This document shows, in pieces, positions 28,785 to 44,581 of a DNA stretch of 53,424 nt. The notes under the pieces were generated by a model. The model searched no databases, was not told the origin of the DNA, and worked only from the letters and a program-made list of their open reading frames with translations. Within the stretch, counting starts at the first letter, position 1. Each line of letters starts with the position of its first letter. The DNA comes from Eubacteriales bacterium. GTDB lineage: Bacteria > Bacillota_A > Clostridia > Christensenellales > Aristaeellaceae. A program made the position numbers and the translations under genes. The stretch spans positions 1 through 53,424 of the forward strand of contig JARKQG010000107.1 in the NCBI GenBank assembly GCA_029974035.1, read 5' to 3'.

Positions 28785-28813
28785 TTGACTTTACAAAGCA
28801 CTCTGGATAAAAT
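28785..28813 (+). promoter_or_regulatory. Promoter of the inositol operon
   Basis: TTGACT (28785-28790), a 17-base spacer and TAAAAT (28808-28813). It is the only strong promoter seen before the run of genes from 28911 to 42574. Confidence 0.78.
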
Positions 28814-28910: not shown

Positions 28911-29822
28911 ATGAAAAAGACTTTCGCGATCCTGTTGGTTGTGCTCCTCTCGATAATCGCCTTTGCTCCCGGCCTTGCGGAAGGCACCATCGCCGTCAAC
29001 CTCAAGACCCTGTCCAGCGAGTACTGGCAGAACGTGAAGGCCGGATGCGACGCCGCGGCGGCCGAACTGGGCGTGACCATCGACGTGCAGGGCGCGGCGG
29101 CGGAGACGGAAATCGCCGAGCAGGTGGCCCAGCTGGAGACCCAGCTGGCGTCGAACCCGGCGGCCATCGTCATCGCTCCGCTGGACGGCGACGCGGTGAT
29201 CGGCGTGCTTCAGTCCTCCGGCTACACCGGCCCTGTGATCTTCTGCGACACCGACTGCGCCTATGAGCAGAAGACCTCCTTCGTCGGCACGTCCAACGAA
29301 GAGGCGGCCTATACCGGCGGCGTGTACGGCGTCAAGATCAACGGCGACAAGACCGGCGCGGTCATCATCTACGGCCAGGAGGGCGACAACACCTCCAACC
29401 TGCGCAAGGCGGGCTACGAGCGCGCGCTGAGCGAGGCGGGCATTACGCCGCTGGCTGAGCTCTCCGGCAACAACACCACCGACGGCGCCACCAAGGTCAT
29501 GGAAGACCTGCTCAACTCCTATCCCGACCAGATCAACCTGGTGCTGTGCATGAACGACGATACCGCCATCGGCGCGCTCAACGCCATCGAGGCGGCGGGC
29601 GCCGAGGGCATCAACGTCATCGGCTTTGACGGCAACGCCAGCGCCGTGGAGCTGATCGCCGCCGGCAAGCTGACCGCCACCGTGGCGCAGCAGCCGGTGC
29701 TGATGGGCGATCTGTCCATCCGGACCGCCGCCAGCGCCGTCAAGGGCGATAAGGTGGACGAGCGCGTGGTGGTCGACACCGTCATCATCGACGCGTCCAA
29801 CGCCGCCGAGTTCATGAAGTAA
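28911..29822 (+). CDS. Sugar/inositol ABC transporter substrate-binding protein (IbpA-like)
   Basis: The 303-residue protein is a periplasmic-binding-protein-4 (ribose/galactose type) receptor, with VNLKTLSSEYWQNVKAGC, a hinge region and VLCMNDDTAIGALNAIEAAG. The signal peptide (about 1-24) ends in a signal peptidase I-like site and has no lipobox cysteine, unusual for a Gram-positive binding protein, which is normally a lipoprotein. It is the first gene of the operon with iolE, iolB, iolD and iolG, so myo-inositol or a related cyclitol is the likely ligand. Confidence 0.88.
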   Translation: MKKTFAILLVVLLSIIAFAPGLAEGTIAVNLKTLSSEYWQNVKAGCDAAAAELGVTIDVQGAAAETEIAEQVAQLETQLASNPAAIVIAPLDGDAVIGVLQSSGYTGPVIFCDTDCAYEQKTSFVGTSNEEAAYTGGVYGVKINGDKTGAVIIYGQEGDNTSNLRKAGYERALSEAGITPLAELSGNNTTDGATKVMEDLLNSYPDQINLVLCMNDDTAIGALNAIEAAGAEGINVIGFDGNASAVELIAAGKLTATVAQQPVLMGDLSIRTAASAVKGDKVDERVVVDTVIIDASNAAEFMK

Positions 29823-29918
29823 TCCGGGCGCCGGAACGGCCTTCTGCGGACGACCCGGCGCACCCGGGTCGTCCGCAGGTCCATCCGAACCCCGGCCCCG
29901 GCATCAGGAGGTGGCTGA

Positions 29919-31424
29919 ATGAACGAGTACGTCGTGGAGCTCCGGCATGTGACCAAGAAATTCCCCGGCGTGGTGGCGATGCGGGACATGCACATTGGCA
30001 TTCGTCCCGGCGAGATCCACGGGCTGATCGGCGAGAACGGCGCCGGAAAATCCACGCTCATCAAGGTGCTCACCGGCGTCCACGCGCCCGAGGAGGGCGA
30101 GATCTTTGTGGACGGCAAAAAGGTGAACTTTACCAGCCCCGTCAAGGCGCGGGAGCACGGCATCGCCTGCGTGTACCAGGAGCTGGGCATCGTGCCCATG
30201 CTCAGCGTGGTGGACAACGTATTCATGGGCCGGAAGGTGAAAAACCGGCTTGGCCTTCTGGATTATCCGAGAATGCACCGGGAAGCCCACGAGGCACTGG
30301 CCATGCTGGGCCATCCCGAAATCGATACGCGCAGGGAGTGCGGCAAGCTGGGCATCGGCCTTCAGCAGATGGTGGAGATTGCCAAGGCGGTGTCGCTGAA
30401 CGCGAAACTGCTCATCATGGACGAACCCACCTCCTCCCTGGGGGAGCAGGAGGTCCGCCAGCTGATGACCACCGTCCGCAGGCTTCGGGAAAGCGGCATC
30501 GCGATCCTCTTTGTATCCCATAAGCTGGAGGAGCTGTTTGAGCTGTGCGACCGCGTCACCGTGATGCGCGACGGCGAGCACATCCTGACCGAGGACATGC
30601 GCGGCATGACGAACGACCGGTTGATCCGGGCGATGGTGGGGCGCACGCTGGAAAACCAGTTCCCCAAGGTGCCCGGCGTCAAGGGCGAATGCTACCTCAG
30701 GGTGGACCGCCTGAGCGAGGCGGGCGTGCTCCGCGACGTGAGCTTTGAGGCCTACGGCGGGCAGATTCTGACCTTCGCGGGGCTGGTGGGCGCGGGCCGC
30801 ACCGAAACCATGCGCGCCATTTTCGCCGCGGACAGGGCCGACGGCGGCGACATCTACATCAAGGGAAAAAAGGTATCCATCAAAAGTCCCGGCGCCGCCA
30901 TCCGGCACGGCATCGCCTTTCTCACCGAGGACCGGAAGGGCCAGGGCTTGGTGCTCAGCCAGTCGGTCAAGACCAACATGATCCTGGCCAACATGAAGCG
31001 GTTCCAGCGCGGCCCGCTCCTGAAAAACCGCCAGATTGATCGCGACAGCCGCGCGCTGGTCAAGACGCTGCGCATCAAGACGCCCTCGGTCAACGAGGTG
31101 ACCATGCAGCTCTCCGGCGGCAACCAGCAGAAGGTGGTCATCGGCAAGTGGATCAACTGCGACGCCGACATCTACATCTTTGACGAGCCCACCCGGGGCA
31201 TCGACGTGGGCGCGAAGGTCGAGGTCTACAACGTGATGAACGACCTGGTGCGCCAGGGCAAGTGCATCATCATGGTTTCGTCCGAGCTGCCGGAGGTGCT
31301 GGGCATGAGCGACCGCGTGATCGTCATGCGCGGCGGGCGCATCATGGCGGCGCTGGACCGCGAGAGCGATCACTTCAATCAGGAAGACATCATGCGCGCC
31401 GCGTGGGGAGGAGAGGTCGGATGA
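29919..31424 (+). CDS. Sugar/inositol ABC transporter ATPase (RbsA-type, IatA-like)
   Basis: A 501-residue double ABC cassette of the RbsA/MglA family. The first half has Walker A GENGAGKSTLIK and MDEPTSSLG. The second has the degenerate GLVGAGRTETMR typical of this family, with LSGGNQQKVVIGKW and FDEPTRGIDVGAK. It energises import with the permease encoded next, whose start overlaps its stop by four bases. GGAGG lies before the ATG. Substrate is inferred from the operon. Confidence 0.92.
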   Translation: MNEYVVELRHVTKKFPGVVAMRDMHIGIRPGEIHGLIGENGAGKSTLIKVLTGVHAPEEGEIFVDGKKVNFTSPVKAREHGIACVYQELGIVPMLSVVDNVFMGRKVKNRLGLLDYPRMHREAHEALAMLGHPEIDTRRECGKLGIGLQQMVEIAKAVSLNAKLLIMDEPTSSLGEQEVRQLMTTVRRLRESGIAILFVSHKLEELFELCDRVTVMRDGEHILTEDMRGMTNDRLIRAMVGRTLENQFPKVPGVKGECYLRVDRLSEAGVLRDVSFEAYGGQILTFAGLVGAGRTETMRAIFAADRADGGDIYIKGKKVSIKSPGAAIRHGIAFLTEDRKGQGLVLSQSVKTNMILANMKRFQRGPLLKNRQIDRDSRALVKTLRIKTPSVNEVTMQLSGGNQQKVVIGKWINCDADIYIFDEPTRGIDVGAKVEVYNVMNDLVRQGKCIIMVSSELPEVLGMSDRVIVMRGGRIMAALDRESDHFNQEDIMRAAWGGEVG

Positions 31425-32443
31425 CGAACGCCACAAGTACCGCACCGAAGAAAAGGACCGGCATCGGCGACATTTTAATGAGACTGGGGCCGCTGATGGT
31501 CCTGGCGATCCTGTTTATTGTGTTCTCCATCGCGCTTCCGGACAAGTTTCTGCGGGTTTCCAACCTCATGAACATCCTGAAGCAGACATCCATCAACTGC
31601 CTGATCGGCTCGGGCATGCTGCTCACGCTGATCACCGCGGGCATCGACCTTTCGGTGGGCTACAACACCATCCTGGCCACCTGCGTCATCGGCGTGCTGA
31701 TGCAGAATTTCGGCATCACCAACCCCGCGGTGCTGATCCTGAGCGCCATCCTGGTTTCCACGCTGGCGGGGCTTGTCAACGGCGTACTGCTGACCCGGCT
31801 GGACCTGCCGCACCCCTTTGTGTCCACGCTGGGCATGAAGTACGTATTCTGGGGCCTGGCGCTGCTCATCACCAGCTCCAAGACCATCGGCTTCACAAAC
31901 AAAGGCATCGATCCGGTGCTGTGGATCGGCAAGGAGACCATCTTCAGCTTCGGGTTTCCGGTGAGCTTTCTTCTGATCCTTTTGATTTACGCCATATTCC
32001 ACGTGTTTCTCAACCACACCGCGCTGGGCCGCCAGATCTACTGCGTGGGCGGCAACCCGGAGGCGGCGCGCATGTCCGGCATCCGCTCGGAGAACGTGTT
32101 GACCATCGTCTATACGATTTCGGGGCTCATGTGCGGCATCGCGGGCGTGGTGCTGGCAGGGCGGCTCAACACCGCCAACACCGCTTCGGCCGCCACCTAC
32201 GATACCGACGCCATCGCCGCGTGCATCATCGGCGGCGCGTCCTTCCGGGGCGGCAAGGGCACCATCTGGGGAACGCTTCTGGGCGCGCTGCTCATCTCCG
32301 CCATCCGCAACGGGCTGAACCTGTTCAGCGCGGGCAACGACATCCAGTACATCGTCATCGGCTCGGTGATCATCGTGGCGGTAACCATCGACGTGACCCG
32401 CGGCAAAATCGAGGCGCGCGCCCGCAAGATGGCGACCGCGTAG
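31421..32443 (+). CDS. Sugar/inositol ABC transporter permease (RbsC-type, IatP-like)
   Basis: The ATG at 31421 overlaps the ATPase stop (ATGA) and gives 340 residues; longer frames lie inside the ATPase gene. About eight to ten membrane helices are seen with family motifs GIDLSVGYN, GNPEAARMSGI and GGASFRGGKGTIWGTLLGA of the BPD_transp_2 group. With the receptor and ATPase it completes a ribose-type importer. Confidence 0.92.
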   Translation: MTNATSTAPKKRTGIGDILMRLGPLMVLAILFIVFSIALPDKFLRVSNLMNILKQTSINCLIGSGMLLTLITAGIDLSVGYNTILATCVIGVLMQNFGITNPAVLILSAILVSTLAGLVNGVLLTRLDLPHPFVSTLGMKYVFWGLALLITSSKTIGFTNKGIDPVLWIGKETIFSFGFPVSFLLILLIYAIFHVFLNHTALGRQIYCVGGNPEAARMSGIRSENVLTIVYTISGLMCGIAGVVLAGRLNTANTASAATYDTDAIAACIIGGASFRGGKGTIWGTLLGALLISAIRNGLNLFSAGNDIQYIVIGSVIIVAVTIDVTRGKIEARARKMATA

Positions 32444-32452
32444 GAGGGCAGC

Positions 32453-33352
32453 ATGTTTCAGAGCGACAGGGTTTTCCTGGGCATCGCGCCCATCGGTTGG
32501 TGCAACGACGACATGCCCGAGCTGGGCGCGGAGAACACGTTCCGCCAGACCGTCAGCGAAATGGCGCTGGCCGGCTTTGCCGGCACCGAAATCGGCAACA
32601 AGTACCCCGCCGACCCCGAAGCGCTCCGGCGGGAACTGGATCTGCGGGGCCTTAAGGTCGCCTCCCGCTGGTTCAGCTCGTTCCTGCTGGACAAGCCCTA
32701 CGCCGAGGTGGAGGCGGATTTCCTCCGCGCGCTGGACTTTCTTTCCGCGGTGGGCGCGGCGCGCGTCAACGTGTCCGAGCAGAGCGGCTCCATCCAGGGC
32801 CGGCCGGACGTGCCGGTGCTGGACGGCAGAAAGCGCGTGATGGACGAGGGGGAATGGGCCCGCCTCACCGAGGGGCTGAACCGGCTGGGCCGGGCGGCGA
32901 CGGCGCGGGGGTTCAAGCTGTGCTTCCACCACCACATGGGCACCGTGGTGGAGAGCGCCGCGGAGACGGACCGCATGCTTCGGGAAACCGATCCGGACCA
33001 CGTGTTTCTGTGCTATGACACCGGCCACTTCGCCTTCGCGGGGGAGGACCCGCTGGCGGTGCTCCGGGCGCACGCGGGCCGCGTGGGCCACGTGCACCTG
33101 AAGGATGTGCGGCGCGCTGTGGTTGACCGGGTGCGCCGGGAGGGGCTGAGCTTTCTCCAGGCGGTCCGGGCGGGCGCCTTCACCGTGCCCGGCGACGGCT
33201 GCGTGGACTTCGATCCCATCTTCCGGGAGCTTTCCGGCGCGGGCTACGAGGGCTGGCTTCTGGTCGAGGCCGAGCAGGATCCGGCGAAGGCCGACCCGCT
33301 GGAGTATGCGCTCCGCGCCCGCGCCTACATCCGCGGGCACGCGGGGCTGTAA
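32453..33352 (+). CDS. iolE: myo-Inosose-2 dehydratase
   Basis: IolE dehydrates 2-keto-myo-inositol to 3D-trihydroxycyclohexane-1,2-dione. The 299-residue TIM-barrel protein has the family opening GIAPIGWCNDDMPELG, EIGNKYP, FHHHMGTVVE, CYDTGHFAFAG and HVHLKDVR, the metal-binding pattern of this xylose-isomerase-like family. The start is nine bases after the permease stop, with GGAGGG before it. Confidence 0.92.
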   Translation: MFQSDRVFLGIAPIGWCNDDMPELGAENTFRQTVSEMALAGFAGTEIGNKYPADPEALRRELDLRGLKVASRWFSSFLLDKPYAEVEADFLRALDFLSAVGAARVNVSEQSGSIQGRPDVPVLDGRKRVMDEGEWARLTEGLNRLGRAATARGFKLCFHHHMGTVVESAAETDRMLRETDPDHVFLCYDTGHFAFAGEDPLAVLRAHAGRVGHVHLKDVRRAVVDRVRREGLSFLQAVRAGAFTVPGDGCVDFDPIFRELSGAGYEGWLLVEAEQDPAKADPLEYALRARAYIRGHAGL

Positions 33353-33362
33353 AGGAGGCAGC

Positions 33363-34181
33363 ATGTACATTCAAAAGGACATCGGCCCGGGCTACACCCC
33401 CCTTCTGACGACGCCCGGCGAGGACGCGGGAACGGGGATGGACGTGGGGCTTCTGGCGCTGGAGGACGGCGCCCGCTGGGAATTTTACGAGCCGGAGAAG
33501 GAAACGGCGCTGCTCCTTCTGCGCGGCCGCGTGCGCTTCGAGTGGGGCGACGTCGACTGCGAGGCCTGCCGCGTGCATCTGGCCGAGCGAGCGGACGAGT
33601 TCCGCCACGATCCCTGGTGCCTGCACGCGCCCCGGGGCATGCGCCTCAGGGTGACGGCGCTGCGCGGCGCAGAAATCTACGTACAGCGGGCGTTTAACGC
33701 CGGGGATTTCCCCGCAAAGCTCTACGGACCGGAGGACGTGATGGTGCAGCACGCCGGCGCGAACGGGGAATTGGGCGGCGCGATGCGCCGGGAGATCAAG
33801 ACGCTTTTCGACTACGAGAGCGCGCCCTGGTCCATGATGGTGCTGGGCGAGGTGCTGAACTACCCCGGCCGCTGGTCCAGTTATCCGCCCCATCATCACC
33901 CGCAGCCGGAGGTGTACTTCCACCGCTTTGACCGCCCGCAGGGCTTTGGCGTCAGCTTCGCCGACGGCGAGGTATACACCTCGCGGCACAACGGGCTGAC
34001 CGCCATCCGATCGGGCTTCCACAGCCAGGCCGCCGCGCCGGGCTATGCGGAAATGTACGTGTGGGGCATCCGGCACCTGCCGGGAAATCCCTGGGAAAAA
34101 ACCCGCATCGACGAGCCGGAGCACGTGTGGCTTCTGGCGGCCGACGCCGACCAACACATCCTTTCGCCGGAGGGCAACTGA
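33363..34181 (+). CDS. iolB: 5-Deoxy-glucuronate isomerase
   Basis: IolB isomerises 5-deoxy-D-glucuronate to 5-dehydro-2-deoxy-D-gluconate. The ATG at 33363, with AAAGGAGG upstream, gives 272 residues. This two-domain cupin has the metal-binding [18 protein letters not shown] and later [19 protein letters not shown]. The product is the branch point at which the classical pathway would use IolC. Confidence 0.93.
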
Positions 34182-34182
34182 T

Positions 34183-36105
34183 ATGAAAACGGTACGGCTC
34201 ACCATGGCGCAGGCGCTGGTGCGCTTTCTGGAAAACCAGTATGTGCGCTTTGACGGCGAGGAAACGCGCTTCGTGCGGGGCGTCATGATGCTGCCCGGCC
34301 ACGGCAACGTGGTGGGGCTGGGCCAGGCACTCCAGCAGGAGCGGAGGGGCCTTGAGCTCTATCAGGGCAAGAACGAGCAGGGCATGGCCCACGCCGCCAT
34401 CGCCTTTGCCAAGCAGAAAAAGCGCAGGGAGATCTTCGCGGTCACCTCGTCCGTGGGGCCGGGCGCGGCCAACATGGTCACGGCCGCGGGTACCGCCACC
34501 GCCAACAACATTCCCGTCCTGATCCTGCCCGGAGACGTGTACGCCTGCCGGCAGCCCGACCCGGTGCTGCAGCAGATCGAGCAGACCCACGACCTGGGGC
34601 TTTCCACCAACGACGCCTTCCGCCCCGTGTGCCGCTATTGGGACCGGATCAACCGGCCCGAGCAGCTGATGAGCGCGCTGCAAAACGCCTTTCGGGTGCT
34701 GACCGACCCGGCCGACACCGGCGCGGTGTGCCTCGCGCTGCCCCAGGACGTGCAGGGCGAGGCTTGGGACTATCCGGAGCGCTTCTTTGAGCGGCGCGTG
34801 CACGAAATCGAGCGCCGGCCGCCGGCCCCGGAGGCTGTGGCGCGGGCCGCGGCGCGCATCCGCGCCGCGAAGCGGCCCATCCTCGTCTGCGGCGGCGGCG
34901 TGCGCTATTCGGAGGCCCACGAAGCCTTCCGCGCCTTTGCCGAGGCCTTTGAAATCCCCTTCGGGGAGACCCAGGCGGGCAAGTCCGCCGTTCCCTGGAC
35001 GCACCCGATGAACCTGGGCGGCATCGGCGTCACCGGCTGCGGCGCGGCCAACGAGCTGGCCGGCCGGGCGGATTGCGTCATCGGCGTGGGCACCCGCTTT
35101 ACCGACTTTACCACCGCCTCAAAATCGCTCTTTGCGGAGGATGCCGCCTTTGTGGCCATCAGCGCTTCGCCCTTTCAGGCGATGAAGCTGGACGCCGCGC
35201 CGGTGGTGGCCGACGCCAGGGCGGCGCTGGACGCCCTGACCTCCGCGCTTGAGGGATACAAAAGCGGCTGGGGCCGCGAGATCGCCGGCGCGAAGGCGCA
35301 CTGGGCCGAGGAGCTGGAGCGGCTGGACGGGCTTTGCTACACCGGGGCGGACTACGTGCCGGAGGTGAACGACCAAAACGCATCCTCCGCCGGGAAGTTC
35401 GCGCAGGACCTGGGCGCCGGACTCACCCAGACCGAGGTGCTGGGCGCGCTGAACCGGCTGATCGAAAAGGACGCCGTCGTCATCGGCTCCTCCGGCAGCC
35501 TGCCGGGCTGCATGCAGCGCATGTGGCGGCCGGAGGTGCCCGACACCTACAACATGGAGTACGGCTACTCCTGCATGGGGTACGAGATCTCCGGGGCGGT
35601 GGGCGTCAAGCTGGCCATCGGCGCGCGCCAGGTGTACTCCATGGTGGGCGACGGCAGCTTTGTGATGCTGCATTCGGAGCTGCTCACCGCGGTGCAGGAG
35701 CGCATGAAGATCAACATCTGCCTGTTTGACAACGCCGGCTTCGGCTGCATCAACAACCTTCAGGTGGGCCAGGGCAACGACACCATGGCCACCGAGCTGC
35801 GCTACCGTGAGGGCGCGGGCCACCGCGGGAGCTTCCTGAACGTGGACTACGCGAAGATCGCCCAGGGCTACGGCGCGGCGGGCTATTCCATCCGCACCCT
35901 GGCCGACCTCACGGCCGCGCTGGAGGCCGCCCGGGCGATCACAGACAGACCCGTGCTCTTTGACATCAAGGTGCTGCCCAAGTCCATGACGGGCGGCTAC
36001 GGCGCCTGGTGGCGGGTGGGCACGCCGGAGGCATCCGAAAACCCGCGCTGCCGGGACGCCTGGCAGGAACACCTTCAGCACCTCGCGGGCGCGCGTCAAT
36101 ACTGA
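34183..36105 (+). CDS. iolD: 3D-(3,5/4)-trihydroxycyclohexane-1,2-dione acylhydrolase (ring-opening)
   Basis: A ThDP enzyme that opens the diketone ring to 5-deoxy-glucuronate. The ATG at 34183, directly after iolB (stop at 34181), gives 640 residues, the family length. The N-terminal ThDP domain has the activating glutamate in [17 protein letters not shown], the middle domain has [11 protein letters not shown], and the C-terminal domain has MVGDGSFVM with a following asparagine (FDNAGFGC) for the metal-pyrophosphate. It is clearly IolD rather than an acetolactate synthase, given its neighbours and length. Confidence 0.94.
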
Positions 36106-36129
36106 CAGATATAGAAGGAAGGGTTCACC

Positions 36130-37140
36130 ATGGACAGAAAGCTGAGAATCGGCGTCATCGGCGCGGGGCGCATCGGAAAACTTCACGCCGCCAATTTGGT
36201 CAACCGCGTACCGGAGGCGGAGCTTGCCGTCATATCGGATGTGTATTTGCCCGCCGCCCGGGAACTGGCGGATGCGCTGGGCGTCGGAGCCGCCACGGCG
36301 GACTACCACGACATCCTGAACGATCCCTCCATCGACGCGGTGTTCATCTGCTCGTCCACCGATACCCACGCCCGGATATCCATCGAGGCGGCGGCGCAGG
36401 GCAAGCACGTCTTCTGTGAAAAGCCCATCGACCAGGACGTGAAAAAGATCGAATCCGTGCTGGAGGCGGTGAAGGCCGCCGGCATCAAGTACCAGGTGGG
36501 CTTCAACCGGCGGTTTGACCGCAACTTCAAGCGCGTGCGCGAGGTGGTCGCCTCCGGCGGCGTCGGCGACGTGCAGATCGTCAAGGTCACCTCCCGCGAT
36601 CCCGCCGCGCCGCCGGTATCCTACGTCAAGTCCTCCGGCGGCATCTTCGCGGACATGACCATCCACGATTTTGACATGGTGCGCTATCTGTCGGGCAGCG
36701 AGGTGACGGAGGTGTCCACCTTCGGCGCGTGCCTGGTGAACCCGGAGATCGGCGAGGCCGGCGATATCGACACCTGCATCATCAACCTTCGCTTTGAAAA
36801 CGGGGCGCTGGGCGTCATCGACAATTCGCGCCAGGCGGTCTACGGCTATGACCAGCGGGTGGAGGTGTTCGGCTCCAAGGGCATGATCTCCGCCGAAAAC
36901 GAAACCGCCAACAACACCACATGGTACACCGCCGAGGGCGTGATGAAGGAAAAACCGCTGTGGTTCTTCCTCGAGCGCTACAATGACGCCTTCATCCAGG
37001 AAGAGACGGACTTCGTCACCGCCTGTCTGACCGGCGCGGACACGCCCGTCAGGGCCGTGGACGGGCTCAAACCCGTGAAGATCGCCATTGCCGCCAAAAA
37101 ATCCTGGGAACTGGGCGGCGCGCCGGTGAAGGTGGATTGA
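36130..37140 (+). CDS. iolG: myo-Inositol 2-dehydrogenase
   Basis: A Gfo/Idh/MocA oxidoreductase of 336 residues that oxidises myo-inositol to 2-keto-myo-inositol with NAD+. It shows GVIGAGRIGKLHA, the catalytic lysine in CEKPID, VGFNRRFD, and the active-site Asp and His in GGIFADMTIHDFDMVRYLSG. This closely follows the IolG pattern. A scyllo-inositol dehydrogenase is possible, but as the only dehydrogenase in the operon the myo-inositol role is more likely. Confidence 0.9.
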   Translation: MDRKLRIGVIGAGRIGKLHAANLVNRVPEAELAVISDVYLPAARELADALGVGAATADYHDILNDPSIDAVFICSSTDTHARISIEAAAQGKHVFCEKPIDQDVKKIESVLEAVKAAGIKYQVGFNRRFDRNFKRVREVVASGGVGDVQIVKVTSRDPAAPPVSYVKSSGGIFADMTIHDFDMVRYLSGSEVTEVSTFGACLVNPEIGEAGDIDTCIINLRFENGALGVIDNSRQAVYGYDQRVEVFGSKGMISAENETANNTTWYTAEGVMKEKPLWFFLERYNDAFIQEETDFVTACLTGADTPVRAVDGLKPVKIAIAAKKSWELGGAPVKVD

Positions 37141-37163
37141 ATGCTGAAACGGGAGGCTTTCGC

Positions 37164-38201
37164 ATGAGAAAAGTCAAAGTGGGCGTCGCGGGCTACGGCA
37201 CCATCGGCCAGCGGCTGGCCGACGGCGTGGCGATGCAGGGCGACATGGAACTGGTGGGCGTGGCGGATCTGGCGCCCACGCTCTCCATTCGCGCGCTGAA
37301 AGAAAAGGGCATGCCTTATGATCTGTATCTGGTGGACGGCGCGGACAGGGCCGCCTTCGACGCGCTGGACATCCCCGTGGCGGGTACGTTTGCCGACCTG
37401 ATCGGAAAGGTGGACGTGATGCTGGATTCGTCGCCCGGCGGCGTCGGCGCGAAAAACAAGGCGCTTTACGAGGCGGCGGGCGTCAAGGCCATCTTTCAGG
37501 GCGGCGAAAAGAACGCCGTGGCGGATGTGTTCTTTCACGGCTACGCCAACTATGAAAAGGGCATCGGCGCAGATTATCTGAAGCTGACTTCCTGCAACAC
37601 CACCGGGCTCATCCGCGCCGTGGATGCGCTGGACCGGGCGGCGGGGGTTTCCCGGGTGGCCATCACCATCATCCGCCGCGTGGCCGACCCCGGCGACTAC
37701 CACCGGGGGCTGACCAACGCCCTTCAGATGGACAAGGCGCCCTCCCACCAGGCGGTGGATCTGATGACCATTATGCCCCGCGTGGCCGCCACCGGCATCC
37801 TGGTCCACACGCCGGTCACCCACGGCCACATCATCACCGTGGTGGCCAGCGGCATCGGCGGCCGGGAGATTTCCCGCGAACGGGCGCTGGCCGCGTTCGA
37901 GGCCCATCCGCGCATCCGCGTGGTGTCCATCGCCGACGGCTTTATGGGCAACGCCAGCTTTTTCAAGTACGCCCGGGACCTGGGCAACCCCCGCGGCGAC
38001 ATGTATGAGATCGGGCTGTGGGCCGACAGCGTGGTGGAGTCGGGCGACGACATCATGTTTGCCATCAACATCCCTCAGGAGTCCGTCACCATCCCGGAGA
38101 CCATCGACGGCATCCGCGCGGCGATGAAGATGCAATTGACGCGGGAGGAAGGCACCCAAATGACCAACGAATACCTGCGCATCGGCCGCTTCAAAGCCTA
38201 G
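37164..38201 (+). CDS. Archaeal-type (type II) glyceraldehyde-3-phosphate dehydrogenase homologue
   Basis: The ATG at 37164 with GGGAGGC upstream gives 345 residues. The protein begins KVGVAGYGTIGQRLADGV and carries the catalytic cysteine C144 in LTSCNTTGLIRAVDAL and IIRRVADP. These are hallmarks of archaeal phosphorylating GAPDH, which has little similarity to the usual bacterial enzyme. Some family stretches differ from what I recall of archaeal enzymes (GLTNAL for GPIN; PSHQ for PSHH). Lying after iolG and before a PGK homologue, it may phosphorylate and oxidise a different aldehyde. My proposal is D-malic semialdehyde, which resembles glyceraldehyde 3-phosphate with carboxylate in place of phosphate. 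Confidence 0.88.
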   Translation: MRKVKVGVAGYGTIGQRLADGVAMQGDMELVGVADLAPTLSIRALKEKGMPYDLYLVDGADRAAFDALDIPVAGTFADLIGKVDVMLDSSPGGVGAKNKALYEAAGVKAIFQGGEKNAVADVFFHGYANYEKGIGADYLKLTSCNTTGLIRAVDALDRAAGVSRVAITIIRRVADPGDYHRGLTNALQMDKAPSHQAVDLMTIMPRVAATGILVHTPVTHGHIITVVASGIGGREISRERALAAFEAHPRIRVVSIADGFMGNASFFKYARDLGNPRGDMYEIGLWADSVVESGDDIMFAINIPQESVTIPETIDGIRAAMKMQLTREEGTQMTNEYLRIGRFKA

Positions 38202-38239
38202 CGCGGGGTGGCGGCACCGCCCGCAACGGAGGAATATCC

Positions 38240-39514
38240 ATGCACTTTGGAATCCGCACGATGGACGAGTTTGACCTGGAGGGCAGGACGGTCATCTGCC
38301 GCGTGGACATCAACCAGCCGGTGGACCGCCGGACGGGCACGCTTCGGGGCACGCAGCGCATCGAGGCCTGCGTGCCGACGCTGCGGGAGCTGATCGACCG
38401 CCGCGCCAGGCTCGTGGTGCTGGCCCACCAGGGCAGCGACATCGAATACCAGAACTACTTTACCACCGCGCCCCACGCGAAGGTGCTCTCGGAGCTTCTG
38501 GGCCGGGAGGTGCGCTTTATCGACGACGTGTGCGGCCCGGCGGCGCGCGCGGCCATCCGCGCGCTCGAGCCCGGCGAGGCGCTGCTGCTGGACAACGTGC
38601 GCTTCTGCGCCGAGGAGCAGACCCTCTTTGAAAAGCACCTGCGGCTGACCCACGAGCAGCAGGCTGAAACGGAGGTCGTAAAAAAGCTGGCTCCGCTGGC
38701 CGACCTGTACGTCTGTGACGCCTTTGCCGCCGCCCATCGGGACCAGCCGTCGCTTTGCGGCTTTGAGCAGGTGCTGCCCAGCGCCATGGGCCGGCTGTTT
38801 GAGCGGGAGTTCCGCGTGGTATCGGAGCTGATGGAGCGTCCCCGGCGGCCCGCGGTGTTCGTGCTGGGCGGCGCAAAGGTGGCCGACGCCTTTCAGATGC
38901 TGGGCGCGGTGCTGGGCGGCGGCGCGGCGGATACGGTGCTGACGGGCGGCCTCGTGGCCAACATCCTCCTGGCCGCGAAGGGCGAGGCGATCGGCCGGGG
39001 CAGCCGCGAATTCATTGAAAAATCGGGCTACGGCGCCTACATCGAGGACGCAAAGCCCCTGATCGCGCAGTATGGCGGGAGAATTCTGCTGCCCGAAAGC
39101 CTCGCCTACCTGGAGGGCGGGGCGCGCCGCGAGGCGGCGCTTTCCGATCTTCCGGAGGATGCGCTGGCGCTGGACATCGGCAAAGGCGCGGCCCAGGGCT
39201 ACGCGCGCGTCATCAGGGATGCCCAAACCGTCTTTGCCAACGGCCCCATGGGCGTATTTGAGCGCTCGGAAACCGAGGCTGGCACCCGAATCGTGTGGGA
39301 AGCGCTGGGGAACACGGGCGCCTTCACCGTGATCGGCGGCGGCGACAGCGTGACGGCGGCCCGGAAATTTGGCGTGGCCGAAAAGCTGGACTATGTGTGC
39401 ACCGGCGGCGGCGCGCTGATCCGCTTCCTCACCGGCGAGGAACTGCCGGTGGTGAGGGCGCTGCGGCACGCGGCCGCGGCCTTTCCCCCGGAAGGAGGAA
39501 CCCATGCGCCTTGA
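38240..39514 (+). CDS. Archaeal-type phosphoglycerate kinase homologue
   Basis: The ATG at 38240 with CGGAGGA upstream gives 424 residues. It resembles archaeal rather than bacterial PGK: FDLEGRTVICRVDINQPVD, LAHQGS, LLDNVRFCAEE, DAFAAAHRDQPSL, FVLGGAKVADA, ANGPMGVFE and VIGGGDSV. Substrate residues R21, D23, N25, R40, H63, R121 and R167 are kept by eye alignment. Position 66, which is Arg in the HLGRP/HQ.RPG motif of ordinary PGKs and part of the patch around the 3-phosphate, is Ser here. That suggests an acyl phosphate substrate without the 3-phosphate. It would transfer phosphate to ADP and yield ATP. It overlaps the LarA-like gene by 11 bases. Confidence 0.88.
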   Translation: MHFGIRTMDEFDLEGRTVICRVDINQPVDRRTGTLRGTQRIEACVPTLRELIDRRARLVVLAHQGSDIEYQNYFTTAPHAKVLSELLGREVRFIDDVCGPAARAAIRALEPGEALLLDNVRFCAEEQTLFEKHLRLTHEQQAETEVVKKLAPLADLYVCDAFAAAHRDQPSLCGFEQVLPSAMGRLFEREFRVVSELMERPRRPAVFVLGGAKVADAFQMLGAVLGGGAADTVLTGGLVANILLAAKGEAIGRGSREFIEKSGYGAYIEDAKPLIAQYGGRILLPESLAYLEGGARREAALSDLPEDALALDIGKGAAQGYARVIRDAQTVFANGPMGVFERSETEAGTRIVWEALGNTGAFTVIGGGDSVTAARKFGVAEKLDYVCTGGGALIRFLTGEELPVVRALRHAAAAFPPEGGTHAP

Positions 39515-40754
39515 ATTTGGCTTTGGCAGCGGCGTGCAGGCGGTGGAAGCGCCGGATCAAAACGTCGTGGGCGTGCTGACGCCCAACGCGGTGCAGCTGG
39601 GATCAACCGGCGCAAACGCCGTGGCGGAAGCGCTGAACGCCCCCATCGGCTCGCCCCGGCTTCGGGACAGGGTGCGCCCGGGGGAGACCGTCGCCATCAT
39701 CACCAGCGACGCGACCCGCCCCATGCCCACCGCCCTTGTGATGCCGATGCTCCTCGATGAACTCTACGCCGCCGGCATAGGGCCGGAGGACATCATGCTG
39801 GTGTTTGCCCTCGGCAGCCACCGCCGTCAGACGCCGGAGGAGATGCAAAAGCTCGCCGGGGTGCGGGCCTATCGGGAGATCCGCTGCGTCGATTCCGATC
39901 CGGAGGACTGTGTGCACTACGGCGTCACCAAACGGGGCACGCCCGTGGATATCACCCGCGCCGTGGCGCGGGCCGACCGGCGGGTGCTCTTGGGCAACAT
40001 CGAATACCACTATTTTGCCGGGTACTCCGGCGGGGGCAAGGCGCTGATGCCCGGGGTGTCCACCCGGGGCGCCATCCAGCGCAACCACTCGCTGATGACC
40101 AACCCCGACGCCTGCGCGGGAAAGCTCGACGGCAACCCGCTGCGGGAGGACATTGAGGAAGCCGCCGCCATGGTGGGCGCGGACTTTCTGCTGAACGTGG
40201 TGCTGGACGAGCACAAAAAGATTGTGCACGCCGTGGCCGGCGATGTGGTGAAGGCCCACCGGGCGGGGTGCGCGTTTCTGGACCGCTTCTACCTGAAGCC
40301 GATTCCCGCGCGCGCGGACATCGTGCTGGTATCCCAGGGCGGCGCGCCCAAGGACCTGAACCTGTACCAAACCCAGAAGGCGCTGGACAACGCCAAACAC
40401 GCGGTGAAGGACGGCGGCGTGGTGATCCTCATCGGCTCCTGCCGCGAGGGGATGGGCGAAAAAACCTTTGAGACGTGGATGACCGGCGCGCCCTCACCCG
40501 ATTCGATGATTGAGCGCATCCGGCGGGATTTTCAGCTGGGCGGCCACAAGGCGGCGGCCATCGCCATGGTGCTCCAGCACGCGGACATCTACCTTGTCAG
40601 CGAGATGCCGGAGGACTTTGTGCGGCGGATCTTCCTCACGCCCTTCCCTTCGGCCCAGGCGGCCCTCGACGCGGCGCTGCAAAAGCTGGGAAACGACGCA
40701 AGCATTCTTGCCATGCCCTACGGCGGTTCGACGCTGCCCAGGGCGCGGGATTGA
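39504..40754 (+). CDS. LarA-family nickel-dependent 2-hydroxyacid racemase homologue
   Basis: LarA uses a nickel-pincer nucleotide to racemise lactate by hydride transfer; homologues act on other hydroxyacids, including malate. This 416-residue protein has SDATRPMPT (R72), FALGSHRRQT (H106), NIEYHYFAGYSGGGKALMPG (H169, and K179 that would bind the cofactor) and QRNHSLMTN (H195, the nickel ligand). These correspond by eye to R75, H108, H174, K184 and H200 of LarA, so it should be active. The cofactor genes larB, larC and larE are not in the window. Its place suggests the racemised acid is the product of the preceding kinase, for which I propose D-malate. Confidence 0.9.
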   Translation: MRLEFGFGSGVQAVEAPDQNVVGVLTPNAVQLGSTGANAVAEALNAPIGSPRLRDRVRPGETVAIITSDATRPMPTALVMPMLLDELYAAGIGPEDIMLVFALGSHRRQTPEEMQKLAGVRAYREIRCVDSDPEDCVHYGVTKRGTPVDITRAVARADRRVLLGNIEYHYFAGYSGGGKALMPGVSTRGAIQRNHSLMTNPDACAGKLDGNPLREDIEEAAAMVGADFLLNVVLDEHKKIVHAVAGDVVKAHRAGCAFLDRFYLKPIPARADIVLVSQGGAPKDLNLYQTQKALDNAKHAVKDGGVVILIGSCREGMGEKTFETWMTGAPSPDSMIERIRRDFQLGGHKAAAIAMVLQHADIYLVSEMPEDFVRRIFLTPFPSAQAALDAALQKLGNDASILAMPYGGSTLPRARD

Positions 40755-40769
40755 TCCGAGGAGGACAAA

Positions 40770-41618
40770 ATGAAGACCGAACGCGAGCTCAGGGCGCTGG
40801 CGGCGCGCATCCGCATCGGCGCGGTGGAGGCTTTCAAGGCCCGGGGGTTTGGCCATGTCGGCGGCGCGCTCAGCGTGTGCGACCTTCTGGCCGTGCTCTA
40901 CGGCGACGTGATGCGCTTTGATCCCCGGAACCCCGGCTGGCCCGAGCGGGACAAGCTGGTGTGTTCCAAAGGCCACGCGGGGCCGGCGGTCTACGCCGCG
41001 CTGGCCGTCGCCGGGTTCTTTCCCTACGACGAGCTCAGGACGCTCAACCAGCCCGGCACCCGGCTGCCCAGCCATTGCGACCGGCTGAAGACCCCCGGCG
41101 TGGACATGACCACCGGTTCCCTGGGCCAGGGCACGTCGCTGGCGGCGGGCATGGCGCTGGGCGACCGGCTGAAGGGCCGAAATAGCCGCATATACCTGAT
41201 CGTCGGCGACGGTGAGCTGGACGAAGGGCAGGTGTGGGAGGCCGCGATGTTTTCCGCCGCCCGGGGCCTTGACAACCTGATCTGGTTTATCGACGACAAC
41301 AAAAAACAATTGGACGGCTGCTGCTGCGACATCCTGGAGCACTTCGACATCCGGAAGAAGTTCGAAGCCTTCGGCTTTGATGCCCGGCGCGTCCCGGGCG
41401 GCGGCGTGGGCGCGATCCGCGAGGCCATTGCCGGGTGCGCCGCGCACGGCGGCAAACCCCACGCCATCGTGCTGGACGGCGTCAAGGGCGCCGGCATCCG
41501 CGAGGTGGAGGAGACGGAAGCCAACCACAGCATGAACGTGTCGCCCGAAACCTGCGACCGCTGGATTGAGGCGCTCGGGGCGGAGCTTCGGGCGCTGGAA
41601 GGGGGGGAGGGCGCGTGA
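40770..41618 (+). CDS. Transketolase, N-terminal (ThDP-binding) subunit
   Basis: The 282-residue protein is the pyrophosphate-binding half of a split transketolase: GHVGGALSVCDLLAVLY, CSKGHAGPAVYAAL, GSLGQGTSLAAGMALG, and the ThDP motif VGDGELDEGQVWEA ending at DDNKKQ. Its stop overlaps the C-terminal subunit start by four bases, so the two form one enzyme. Split transketolases serve pentose phosphates in many bacteria, but here the pair closes an inositol operon. GGAGGA precedes the ATG. Confidence 0.93.
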   Translation: MKTERELRALAARIRIGAVEAFKARGFGHVGGALSVCDLLAVLYGDVMRFDPRNPGWPERDKLVCSKGHAGPAVYAALAVAGFFPYDELRTLNQPGTRLPSHCDRLKTPGVDMTTGSLGQGTSLAAGMALGDRLKGRNSRIYLIVGDGELDEGQVWEAAMFSAARGLDNLIWFIDDNKKQLDGCCCDILEHFDIRKKFEAFGFDARRVPGGGVGAIREAIAGCAAHGGKPHAIVLDGVKGAGIREVEETEANHSMNVSPETCDRWIEALGAELRALEGGEGA

Positions 41619-42574
41619 ACGCGTTTCGCGGAGAGAGAGACCCCCGGGCGTTCAAGGACGTGCTGGGTGCCACCATCACCGATATTCTGGAAGAGGACCC
41701 CGATGCCATCTACCTGGACGCGGACCTGATGAGCTGTATCGGCACGGCAAAGTACGCCTGCCGGCGGCCTGACCGAGCCATCCAGTGCGGCATTGCGGAG
41801 GCCAACATGATCGGCGTGGCTTCGGGGCTGGCGGCGGCGGGCTTCCGCCCCATCGCCCACACCTTTGGTCCCTTCGCGTCCCGGCGCTGCTTTGACCAGG
41901 TGTTTCTGTCGGCGGGCTACGCGAAAAACGACATCACCGTCATCGGCACCGACCCGGGGGTGTGCGCCGCCTTCAACGGCGGCACCCACATGCCCTTTGA
42001 GGACATGGCCCTCTACCGGGTGCTGCCCGGCGCCACCGTCATGGACATCACCGACACCGTGATGCTGGAATCCGTTCTCCGGCAATGCCAGAACCGCCCC
42101 GGGGTGAAGTACCTGCGGGTGGGGCGCAAAAACGGCTGGAAGGTGTACGAGGCGGGCGCGGAGTTTGCCATCGGCCGGGCCGTGACGCTTCGGGAGGGGC
42201 GTGACGTCACCCTCGTCGCCTGCGGCATCATGGTGGGCGAGGCGCTTACGGCCGCCCAAACCCTCGCGGCCGAGGGCATCGACTGCGCGGTGATCGACAT
42301 GTTTACCGTAAAGCCGCTGGACGCGGAGGCGCTCCTCGCCTCGGCGGGAAAGACCCGTGCGGTGGTCACCGCCGAAAACCACAACCGGGTGGGCGGGCTA
42401 TACGCCGCGGTGTGCGAGGCGCTGGCCGGCCGGCTGCCGTTGCCGGTGGAGTACGTGGCCGTGGAGGACGCCTTTGGCGAAGTCGGCCCGCAGGATTACC
42501 TGCAAAAGCGCTTCAGACTGACGGCGGAGCACATCGCGGAAAAGGCGCGGCGCGCGCTGGCGCGAAAGGACTGA
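41615..42574 (+). CDS. Transketolase, C-terminal subunit
   Basis: The 319-residue protein supplies the pyrimidine-binding and C-terminal domains: QCGIAEANMIGVASGLAAAG with the glutamate that activates ThDP, FGPFASRRCFDQV, AAFNGGTHMPFEDMALYRV, and the C-terminal domain with VVTAENHNRVGGLYAAV. It is the last gene before two hairpin terminators. In the pathway proposed here the ketose donor would be 5-dehydro-2-deoxy-D-gluconate, whose keto-diol end has the same D-threo arrangement as xylulose 5-phosphate. Confidence 0.93.
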   Translation: MNAFRGERDPRAFKDVLGATITDILEEDPDAIYLDADLMSCIGTAKYACRRPDRAIQCGIAEANMIGVASGLAAAGFRPIAHTFGPFASRRCFDQVFLSAGYAKNDITVIGTDPGVCAAFNGGTHMPFEDMALYRVLPGATVMDITDTVMLESVLRQCQNRPGVKYLRVGRKNGWKVYEAGAEFAIGRAVTLREGRDVTLVACGIMVGEALTAAQTLAAEGIDCAVIDMFTVKPLDAEALLASAGKTRAVVTAENHNRVGGLYAAVCEALAGRLPLPVEYVAVEDAFGEVGPQDYLQKRFRLTAEHIAEKARRALARKD

Positions 42575-42594: not shown

Positions 42595-42659
42595 CGGGGC
42601 TCCGCGAAAGGGCGGAGCCCCGCGCCTTTGCGCCCCGGTTTAAAATCCGGGGTTTTTTT
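42595..42659 (+). terminator. Double terminator of the inositol operon
   Basis: An 11-bp stem (CGGGGCTCCGC at 42595-42605 with 42612-42622) is followed by a textbook intrinsic terminator: CCCCGG (42633-42638), loop, CCGGGG (42647-42652) and seven T residues (42653-42659). The T run ends in the -35 box of the next promoter. Confidence 0.93.
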
Positions 42660-42686
42660 GATATTTGGCGGAATGTATGCTATAAT
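42658..42686 (+). promoter_or_regulatory. SigA-type promoter of the ABC exporter gene
   Basis: TTGATA (42658-42663), a 17-base spacer and TATAAT (42681-42686) with an extended TGC. The leader to the TTG start at 42752 is about 60 bases. Confidence 0.85.
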
Positions 42687-42751
42687 CAAAATGATGCACA
42701 AAAAATGATGTTCCCGCTATGCCGGGCAGCCGCCCGAAAGGAGAGATCCCC

Positions 42752-44581
42752 TTGCCGAAGCTGCCGCGCGGCTTTCTGACCGAGGAAGAAAAGAAAAACC
42801 GCCCGAAGATCACCAAGGCGCTGCTTCTGCGCATCGCGTCCTACCTGAAGCCCTACTGGAAGCAGCTGCTGCTGGTGTTCTTTACCATCATCACCTCCAG
42901 CGTGCTGGGGCTGTTTCCGTCGATCATCACGGGCCGCATCGTGGACGAGGCGGTGATCGGTCACGACATGAAAATGCTGATCGAGCTGATGATCCTGGCG
43001 GGCGTGACGCTGGTGGCCTCGCAGGTGATCGGCGTACTGGAGAGCTACGTCAATATCTGGATCTCCCAGCGGATCATCTACGACATGAAAAACGAGATGT
43101 ACCGGCACCTGCAGGGCATGCCCCACGCGTTTTTCACCACCGAAAAGCAGGGCGACATCGTGACCCGCATGAACGGCGACGTGGGCGGTGTCAGCACGGT
43201 GCTGTCCAGCACGCTGTCCAACATCCTCTCCAACATCACCATCGTCGTGACCACGATGGTGGCGCTGTTTTCCATGAGCTGGCAGCTGGCGCTTCTGGGC
43301 ATTCTGGCGATTCCGCTTTTGATCCTGCCCACCAAGGAGGTGGGCAAGACCCGCTGGCAGCTTCTGTCCAAGGGGCAGGCCAAGCAGGACGAGCTCAACC
43401 AGATCATCAACGAAACGCTGTCGGTCAGCGGCTCGCTGCTGACCAAGCTCTTCACCCGCGAGGACAACGACTACGAGCAGTTCAAAAAGGTCAACGAGGA
43501 AGTGACCCTCTGGACCATGCGGGAGCAGCGCTCCGGCAAGTGGTTCAAGATGATGATGAGCATGTTCTCCCAGGCGGGCCCGCTTCTGATCTACTGCGCC
43601 GGCGGCTTCATGATCCTCAAGGGGCTGGACCCGAACCTCAGCGTCGGCGTCATCACCTCCACGGTGGCGCTGGTCAACCGGCTGTACCGGCCGCTGCAGA
43701 GCCTCACGGACGTGCAGGTGGACATCACCCGCTCCATGGCGCTCTTCACCCGCATCTTCGATTATCTGGACCGGAAGAATAACATCCTCAACAAGCCCGA
43801 CGCCGTGCAGCCTCCGCTGGAAAAGATGGACATCCGCTTTGACCACGTGCAGTTTGCCTACGCCCCGGGGCTTGAAATCCTCCGGGACATCGACTTTACG
43901 CTGCCCGGCGGCGAAATGTTCGCCATCGTCGGGCCTTCGGGCGCCGGCAAGTCCACGCTGGTCAACATGATTCCCCGCCTGTACGATGTGACGGGCGGCG
44001 CGGTCCGGATCGGCGGCACTGACGTGCGCGACATTGACCTCACGTACCTGCGCGCCGGCATCGGCATGGTGACGCAGGATACCTACCTCTTCAACGGCAC
44101 CATCGAGGAAAACCTGCGCTGCGCCAAGGAGGACGCCACGATGGAGGAGCTGGAGGCGGCCTGCCGCGCCGCCAACATCCACGACTTCATTGCCGCCCAG
44201 CCCGACGGCTACAAGACGCGGGTGGGCAACCGGGGGCTGAAGCTCTCCGGCGGCGAAAAGCAGCGCATGTCCATTGCCCGCGTGGTTTTGAAGGACCCAA
44301 AGATTCTGATCCTGGACGAGGCCACCTCGTCCCTCGACTCCATCAGCGAGAGCCACATCCAGGACGCGCTGGACGCGCTGATGAAGGGGCGCACCTCCAT
44401 TGTCATCGCCCACCGGCTGTCCACAGTGCTGGCGGCGGATCAGATTCTGGTGCTCACCGACGGCGAGATCAAGGAGCGCGGCCGCCACGACGAGCTGATG
44501 GCGATGCACGGCATCTACCGCGAGCTGTTTGAAACCCAGTTCCGGCGCGCCATTGACATGCACAACGAGGCCGCCAACTGA
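42752..44581 (+). CDS. ABC exporter half-transporter (membrane domain plus ATPase)
   Basis: I place the start at a TTG (42752) because AAAGGAG lies eight bases upstream; the in-frame ATG at 42719 has no ribosome binding site. The 609-residue protein has six membrane helices (about 30-320) and a C-terminal cassette with Walker A GPSGAGKSTLVN, signature LSGGEKQRMS and Walker B ILILDEATSSLD. Fusion of both domains on one chain is the MsbA/LmrA/Sav1866 pattern, active as a homodimer or with a partner. No partner gene is adjacent and it stands as a single-gene unit. The substrate is unknown; lipids, peptides or drugs are possible. Confidence 0.9.
   Translation: MPKLPRGFLTEEEKKNRPKITKALLLRIASYLKPYWKQLLLVFFTIITSSVLGLFPSIITGRIVDEAVIGHDMKMLIELMILAGVTLVASQVIGVLESYVNIWISQRIIYDMKNEMYRHLQGMPHAFFTTEKQGDIVTRMNGDVGGVSTVLSSTLSNILSNITIVVTTMVALFSMSWQLALLGILAIPLLILPTKEVGKTRWQLLSKGQAKQDELNQIINETLSVSGSLLTKLFTREDNDYEQFKKVNEEVTLWTMREQRSGKWFKMMMSMFSQAGPLLIYCAGGFMILKGLDPNLSVGVITSTVALVNRLYRPLQSLTDVQVDITRSMALFTRIFDYLDRKNNILNKPDAVQPPLEKMDIRFDHVQFAYAPGLEILRDIDFTLPGGEMFAIVGPSGAGKSTLVNMIPRLYDVTGGAVRIGGTDVRDIDLTYLRAGIGMVTQDTYLFNGTIEENLRCAKEDATMEELEAACRAANIHDFIAAQPDGYKTRVGNRGLKLSGGEKQRMSIARVVLKDPKILILDEATSSLDSISESHIQDALDALMKGRTSIVIAHRLSTVLAADQILVLTDGEIKERGRHDELMAMHGIYRELFETQFRRAIDMHNEAAN

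Follow-up and report, generated by a model that had tools for sequence, protein, structure and literature searches.

How can a bacterium use the product of the upper inositol pathway if the operon that would make this product does not encode the kinase IolC? The question is raised by 12 genes on the forward strand, at positions 28911-42574 of contig JARKQG010000107.1 from a Eubacteriales bacterium (assembly GCA_029974035.1), the 53,424 nucleotides of which are called the window in the following. Inositol comes from phytate, a common plant compound, and IolG, IolE, IolD and IolB yield 5-dehydro-2-deoxy-D-gluconate (DKG), which is usually consumed by IolC and IolJ. The operon encodes an ABC importer (three genes), IolE, an IolB-like protein, IolD and IolG, followed by homologues of type II glyceraldehyde-3-phosphate dehydrogenase (GAPDH), phosphoglycerate kinase (PGK), LarA and the N- and C-terminal chains of a split transketolase (TktN and TktC). 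Profile searches of the window proteins revealed no IolC kinase among the products of the operon. It is quite likely that this operon cuts DKG by means of its split transketolase and makes malate with a gain of ATP, without a kinase or an aldolase acting on DKG. This reading has its direct basis in the gene content, in subfamily membership, in the recurrent co-occurrence of the genes, in the mutual exclusion with IolC in one sampled bacterial class and in altered conserved residues of transketolase, PGK and GAPDH; the enzyme steps themselves are predicted.

The predicted path from inositol to malate

IolE, IolD and IolG passed the curated NCBIfam cut-offs, and the assignment of IolB held at the level of the family (PF04962, 163.5 bits) but not at the curated cut-off of TIGR04378. 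Together, the homologues of IolG, IolE, IolD and IolB would convert inositol to DKG, and the operon shares these upper steps with the canonical IolG-E-D-B-C-J catabolism of Bacillus, Salmonella and Anaerostipes. Whereas the canonical route goes on with IolC, the operon has homologues of transketolase, GAPDH, PGK and malate racemase instead. For Anaerostipes, an inositol pathway via IolC and IolJ is described in excerpts of PMC8355322 (all papers given here by PMC number are cited from excerpts).

Written from its ketone end, DKG is CH2OH-CO-CHOH-CHOH-CH2-COO−, with the same D-threo diol as xylulose 5-phosphate, as derived from the configuration of D-gluconate. If the bond from the ketone to the neighboring carbon is cut, what remains is OHC-CHOH-CH2-COO−, that is, 3-hydroxy-4-oxobutanoate. 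In our model, the split transketolase would take the ketol unit (C5-C6) from DKG and load it onto a sugar phosphate; with glyceraldehyde 3-phosphate, for example, xylulose 5-phosphate would be formed. The other product would be D-malic semialdehyde (3-hydroxy-4-oxobutanoate), which resembles glyceraldehyde 3-phosphate but has a carboxylate in place of the phosphate. The type II GAPDH homologue would then convert malic semialdehyde and phosphate, with NAD+ as the predicted oxidant, to malyl 1-phosphate, from which the PGK homologue would form D-malate and ATP with ADP as the acceptor, and the LarA homologue would turn D-malate into L-malate. Malic enzyme, encoded outside this operon and near these genes in many relatives, would finally split L-malate into pyruvate and CO2. 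We arrive at the same stereochemistry as the original prediction: C3 of DKG is configured as in D-glyceraldehyde, and (R)-, that is, D-malate results on oxidation. Hence, a racemase is a natural and useful last step.

Recurrence of the gene set and exclusion of IolC

The original prediction had suggested a search of genomes for the cluster. With an alignment of the GAPDH homologue, we scanned a collection of one genome per species (84,980 species) and counted the best 80 of 525 confirmed stretches as loci, so that the counts describe the close relatives of this GAPDH. They belong to Clostridia, Treponema and other Spirochaetes, Chloroflexi/Anaerolineaceae, Synergistaceae, Planctomycetaceae and others, and are mostly metagenome assembled, as judged by their titles; 72 of the 80 loci passed a 700-bp distance criterion. 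The neighbors of GAPDH were PGK (74 loci), LarA (55), malic enzyme (34), TktN (37) and TktC (37), as well as the inositol proteins IolE (39), IolB (32), IolD (35) and IolG (25). The search did recover the set: at least one of IolE, IolB and IolD, together with PGK, LarA and both transketolase chains, was found in 22 of the 80 loci and in 16 different gene orders. Shuffling to this extent points to selection for keeping the functions together, and the recurrence of the set in several phyla and in changing order is more than chance would give.

The original prediction would be refuted by iolC and iolJ genes elsewhere in the genome that are co-regulated with the operon. This was addressed in 39 locus genomes, selected from the 80 loci and mostly with iol genes (L033 was left out). 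IolC (TIGR04382, cut-off 300) was above the cut-off in none of these 39 genomes, to which the source genome of the window does not belong, and in 3 of 14 controls; other sugar kinases of the locus genomes reached up to 199 bits. The aldolase-like domain PF09863, which we take to have the role of IolJ, was likewise found in 0 of the 39 locus genomes and in 1 of the 14 controls, a search that did not extend to the stand-alone class II aldolase form of IolJ.

Further evidence came from 391 genomes of one class, drawn so as not to pick genomes for the answer (the Fisher tests given here ignore kinship). IolD was above the cut-off in 27 of them. Eleven of these 27 had IolC, 11 had type II GAPDH and none had both (one-sided Fisher test, p = 3.4e-4); in G096 the IolC match lies below the cut-off at 283 bits, and if this genome is counted as IolC positive, p becomes 1.0e-4. 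Type II GAPDH was present in 16 of the 391 genomes, 11 of which also had IolD. The centre genome, G018, was excluded from the corresponding test, since it had been chosen for having GAPDH, and the enzyme was then found in 11 of 27 genomes with IolD versus 4 of 363 without (p = 2e-11). In 7 of the 11 genomes with both proteins, GAPDH lies within 10 kb of IolD. Furthermore, a close transketolase (at least 46% identity, a line set after the data were seen) was present in 10 of the 11 GAPDH-positive genomes versus 1 of the 16 other IolD-positive genomes, and in 31 of the 39 locus genomes.

The four IolD-positive genomes with neither GAPDH nor IolC (G096 being counted as IolC positive) all carry a transaldolase homologue in the iol cluster, a match at family level (120.7 bits versus a model cut-off of 367). 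The same four clusters encode a homologue of the CoA-acylating methylmalonate-semialdehyde dehydrogenase (three clusters) or of a SauS-like acylating aldehyde dehydrogenase (one cluster). Relatives of this transaldolase with at least 63% identity occur in 6 of the 27 genomes, namely, in these four, in the IolC-positive G194, where it was not found in the iol cluster that was read (L216), and in the GAPDH-positive G218. None of the 27 genomes lacks all three ways on from DKG, namely, the kinase (12, including G096), the GAPDH set (11) and the transaldolase (6). By analogy, the transaldolase clusters may encode a second kinase-free inositol route, parallel to sulfo-TAL, in which dihydroxyacetone would be passed from DKG to glyceraldehyde 3-phosphate and malonic semialdehyde would be left.

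It is imaginable that DKG is cut to other products in the operon under study, in the manner of a 2-oxoacid dehydrogenase or an aldolase, and that the GAPDH homologue oxidizes malonic semialdehyde. The transaldolase and acylating semialdehyde dehydrogenase of some other iol clusters and a pyruvate dehydrogenase (PDH)-like complex that adjoins the module in Acetobacterium fit such a cut. However, enzymes of this kind are not among the genes of this operon, and the combination of a racemase, a phosphorylating dehydrogenase and a kinase would rather suit a 2-hydroxy aldehyde. We therefore give this alternative next to no credence. Malonic semialdehyde was rejected as the substrate of GAPDH, because the racemase would be left unexplained.

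Stretches with transaldolase and acylating semialdehyde dehydrogenase homologues in an iol cluster, and with no IolC in the stretch, are L093:4573-7986 as well as L094, L095, L096 and L098.

Active sites of the lower enzymes

For LarA, malate as the substrate had been derived from the logic of the pathway, and membership of the curated LarAH6 family of nickel-dependent malate racemases (NF052593) therefore counts as an independent hit; the activity itself is predicted. The best match of LarA in the PDB is the malate racemase Mar2 (6d6z), with 412 bits, the next one having 222 bits. The residues Q293, H350 and K351 of Mar2 are kept in 55, 54 and 54 of 55 LarA relatives with at least 50% identity, with a gap in one row at both H350 and K351. 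Lactate racemase was rejected as an assignment, since NF033504 gave 338.4 bits, below its cut-off of 460. LarC, which we take to serve the cofactor of LarA, is encoded in 29 of the 39 locus genomes and in 8 of the 11 GAPDH-positive and 11 of the 16 other IolD-positive genomes, and some carriers of LarA are without it; with so similar a spread in both groups, it neither supports nor refutes the proposed route. The LarA of the operon belongs to the same curated subfamily as Mar2 and has the same substrate-site residues. For Mar2, activity on malate has been reported and the role in the cell was left open (PMC7583248); the context of the operon would supply such a role. Malic enzyme, which had no part in the reasoning of the original prediction, is the next step that L-malate would need in a fermenter. 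Its homologue lies in the same stretch in 34 of the 80 loci, where one copy (L076) was confirmed by Pfam (PF00390 and PF03949) and the other 33 were assigned by their similarity to that copy.

Two successive genes encode the transketolase, the first one its N domain and the second one its pyrimidine and C domains, and the match is at family level. The transketolase residues H26, H66, H100, D155, E160, N185, E411 and H473 (E. coli numbers) are kept in the window and in all close relatives compared (55 N chains and 54 C chains). H461 and D469, presumably residues of the canonical substrate site, are replaced by D and N, respectively, in the TktC of all 54 close relatives. R520 is kept in all 54, and the position of R358 holds K (44), R (9) or N (1). 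At the position of E. coli I187, TktN has K in 29 and R in 19 of the 55 close copies, whereas 13 of 16 distant ones have L; this basic residue may pair with the Asp at 461. Among 19 more distant transketolases, 9 have the pair H and D at 461/469, and 5 have D and N.

Transketolase has been directed at a substrate of similar shape. Wang et al. (2022) and Salusjarvi et al. (2004) are said, in a citing paper, to have worked on 5-ketogluconate. This compound is DKG with an additional 2-hydroxyl group, and it is cleaved at the same C4-C5 bond to tartaric semialdehyde by an E. coli TktA variant (R358I/H461S/R520Q) with an activity on 5-ketogluconate raised by 55.3%, as cited in PMC12016104. The altered H461 site of TktC is in line with the view that the pocket has to change for a ketose that ends in a carboxylate. 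In contrast to the TktA variant, which was engineered for production and changed at R520, the inositol operon is natural, keeps R520 and is predicted to release malic semialdehyde.

The GAPDH homologue passed the cut-offs of NF003251 and TIGR01546 and keeps the SCNTTG motif. Compared with four archaeal chains, all 80 loci differ, among other positions, by K to D at 35, P to L at 183, H to Q at 196 and H to P at 304, position 196 being the second H of PSHH in the four archaeal enzymes. D at position 35 suggests the use of NAD+. The PGK homologue is a PF00162 protein (367 bits) that passed no NCBIfam cut-off. At the position of R65 (yeast numbering; R62 in E. coli), which we take to be a basic residue of the 3-phosphoglycerate site, the copy in the window has S. 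The cluster copies gave 92 rows, from all loci fetched and thus including some without iol genes; after removal of 3 duplicates, 89 distinct copies have S (64), D (20), A (1), G (1) or a gap (3) at this position, so that R or K occurs in 0 of 86 ungapped rows. In contrast, 30 housekeeping copies from the locus genomes have R (17), K (11) or D (2), that is, R or K in 28.

Could the GAPDH, PGK and transketolase homologues simply do ordinary work in glycolysis and the pentose phosphate pathway, their place in the operon ensuring that a normal IolC/IolJ route is quickly drained of its triose and pentose phosphates? The families are the correct ones and most catalytic residues are kept, but IolC is above the cut-off in none of the 39 locus genomes and was never found with GAPDH in the class sample. 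Moreover, 34 of the 39 locus genomes have an ordinary GAPDH as well, and 35 have at least two PGK matches (partial genes included), so that the operon-type copies are extra in most of them. The altered sites of PGK and transketolase do not suit an ordinary role either, and malate racemase and malic enzyme would be left without a place. Ordinary sugar phosphate metabolism is therefore a very unlikely explanation, and a glycolytic role of the GAPDH/PGK pair was rejected on the lack of IolC above the cut-off, the extra GAPDH and PGK copies and the altered PGK site.

Several observations weigh against the transketolase route. The evidence for the absence of IolC comes from related genomes, not from the source genome of the window. 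Most of the glycolytic active site is kept in PGK and GAPDH, and D at the R65 position is also seen in the 2 housekeeping PGKs mentioned above. The D/N pair of TktC, found in 5 of the 19 distant copies, is not unique to this pathway; the engineered TktA has Ser, not Asp, at 461 and is changed at the R520 kept here, and it is hard to see why an Asp should stand beside an anionic substrate. LarA matches in Spirochaetes are just 33-37% identical. A close transketolase is missing from 8 of the 39 locus genomes (G001, G007, G022, G025, G026, G030, G037 and G039), 5 of which have iol genes beside GAPDH (L001, L039, L044, L046 and L056). Many of the eight are incomplete assemblies, judged by titles alone, and G022 and G030 have transketolase copies at 44-45% identity, the distant copies read from these two genomes carrying the D/N pair. 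In the class sample, the GAPDH-positive G361 is without a close transketolase at a limit of 1e-55, and the close transketolase of G375 sits in a second iol cluster that lacks GAPDH.

The lower enzymes also occur apart from the inositol genes: none of IolE, IolB and IolD was found in 16 of the 39 loci flanked by at least 7 kb on both sides, and Dorea D27 (G018) has the module and no IolD at a limit of 1e-150. In Acetobacterium, the locus consists of GAPDH, PGK, malic enzyme and LarA next to the PDH-like complex, with no transketolase in the locus, an arrangement which indicates that use of the lower module is not confined to inositol. The loci without IolE, IolB and IolD also fit a module made for another sugar acid, for example a 5-keto-hexonate that is converted via tartaric semialdehyde to tartrate, with the iol genes feeding into the module in some species. 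The action of a transketolase variant on 5-ketogluconate (PMC12016104) and the side activity of malate racemases on tartrate (PMC11770544) are in line with this view, but malate is by far the better of the two substrates for the measured racemase LarAH62 (PMC11770544). In addition, 11 of the 15 GAPDH-positive class genomes (the centre excluded) have IolD, and the recurrent partner is a malic enzyme homologue. We thus regard another sugar acid as an unlikely substrate, and probably the GAPDH-PGK-LarA module serves any source of malic semialdehyde. The transketolase route from DKG to malate was supported as an overall interpretation and had to be trimmed in its scope, since the GAPDH-PGK-LarA core occurs without iol genes and a transaldolase variant exists.

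Other settings of these genes were seen as well. The Acetobacterium module (L076:4294-14840; also L074, L079 and L080, with similar parts in L023 and L069) is joined to homologues of PDH-like E1 alpha, E1 beta, E2 and E3 and to a hydroxyacyl-CoA dehydrogenase-like protein. In Diplocloster modestus (L078:3865-9939), another example of the module without IolE, IolB and IolD, a radical SAM protein, a PFL-like glycyl radical enzyme and an aldehyde dehydrogenase homologue directly precede GAPDH, PGK, LarA, malic enzyme and transketolase. The second iol cluster of G375 (L213:1492-13000) has the split transketolase and no match to GAPDH or PGK, and two neighbors of 466 amino acids match transporter families.

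Precedents and setting of the operon

A similar way of working is known from sulfo-TK, in which the split transketolase SqwGH takes an unphosphorylated, sulfonated ketose, with the anionic group as a phosphate mimic and glyceraldehyde 3-phosphate as the acceptor (PMC9594981), as proposed here. The likeness is one of working only: sulfo-TK, which has the isomerase SqwI and sulfofructose as its substrate, handles a sulfonate and its end product is reduced or oxidized, whereas here the group is a carboxylate, and the aldehyde would enter central metabolism via the GAPDH-PGK pair. Malic semialdehyde and D-malate are also the intermediate and product shared with the breakdown of L-carnitine in Acinetobacter, which differs in having a malic semialdehyde dehydrogenase of another family, no phosphorylation step described, a D-malate dehydrogenase that leads to pyruvate and no racemase (PMC11353897).

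A transketolase or transaldolase route for inositol was not found among the matches listed, at title level, in the open-access PMC literature, and a term search of PMC12482443 and PMC7618129 gave no occurrence of transketolase, malate, racemase, glyceraldehyde or phosphoglycerate kinase. Judged from the sequences, the predicted route is very likely right in outline. In a large survey, an inositol cluster is counted if three of iolB, iolC, iolD and iolE are present; where the fourth gene is missing, frameshifts, errors of assembly and incomplete sequence are offered as possible causes (PMC9430895). Under this rule, genomes with the route proposed here could be taken for ordinary ones that have a gap.

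Taken together, we consider it probable that anaerobic bacteria treat DKG, by virtue of its carboxylate, like a sugar phosphate and break it down in a complete parallel lower glycolysis of transketolase, GAPDH, PGK, racemase and malic enzyme to pyruvate, with one ATP gained by substrate-level phosphorylation. In a sister form, a transaldolase together with an acylating semialdehyde dehydrogenase would do this work. The two routes without a kinase would mirror sulfo-TK and sulfo-TAL, and the formation of D-malate would explain why a subfamily of nickel-dependent malate racemases exists. If this is true, the GAPDH and PGK homologues would have a non-glycolytic pair of substrates, the LarAH6 malate racemases would gain the cellular role left open in PMC7583248, and there would be an additional ATP-yielding way to malate. 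The model yields specific and cheap assays on five proteins.

All 12 genes were found where the original prediction had placed them, all on the forward strand (Table 1), and their tight spacing was borne out, the widest gap among the listed open reading frames (ORFs) being 96 bp (29823-29918). A promoter-like site does lie upstream. A consensus scan gave 4 promoter-like and 12 terminator-like sites versus means of 1.7 and 10.6 after shuffling, and the claim of a single promoter, resting on a pattern match, is therefore plausible, not shown.

Table 1. Features of the inositol operon and its borders (positions in the window)
Feature	Position	Strand	Evidence
Promoter-like site TTGACT-17-TAAAAT, 5' of the operon	28785..28813	+	Consensus scan only
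Sugar-type ABC importer, substrate-binding protein	28911..29822	+	PF13407 7.9e-50
ABC importer, ATPase	29919..31424	+	PF00005 1e-48, two stretches
ABC importer, permease	31421..32443	+	PF02653 4.8e-40
IolE, myo-inosose-2 dehydratase	32453..33352	+	TIGR04379 392.8 bits (cut-off 290)
IolB-like 5-deoxy-glucuronate isomerase; longest ORF, start likely ~33363	33306..34181	+	PF04962 7.8e-48; TIGR04378 91.1 bits, below cut-off 205
IolD, trihydroxycyclohexanedione hydrolase; longest ORF, homology from ~34195	34045..36105	+	TIGR04377 891.4 bits (cut-off 715)
IolG, inositol 2-dehydrogenase	36130..37140	+	TIGR04380 467.4 bits (cut-off 355)
Type II GAPDH homologue, predicted phosphorylating D-malic semialdehyde dehydrogenase	37164..38201	+	NF003251 386.3 (cut-off 185); TIGR01546 288.7 (cut-off 232.9); SCNTTG motif kept; differs from archaeal enzymes
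PGK homologue, predicted D-malyl phosphate:ADP kinase; start likely ~38240	38198..39514	+	PF00162 1.5e-109; S at R65-equivalent
LarA homologue, predicted malate racemase, LarAH6 subfamily	39504..40754	+	NF052593 561.5 bits (cut-off 500); nearest solved chain Mar2 (6d6z); Q293, H350, K351 kept
Split transketolase, N-terminal chain (TktN)	40770..41618	+	PF00456 9.7e-43; best solved chain 6yak, split transketolase
Split transketolase, C-terminal chain (TktC); D and N at E. coli H461 and D469 positions	41615..42574	+	PF02779, PF02780; best solved chain 6yaj
Intrinsic terminator-like hairpin, then T run, just 3' of TktC	42632..42653	+	Pattern match only

No RNA family above the Rfam gathering score and, by ARAGORN, no tRNA was found in the window. 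Directly 3' of the terminator-like site, a homologue of MsbA-like ABC exporters (42719-44581) follows with a promoter-like site of its own (42658-42686).

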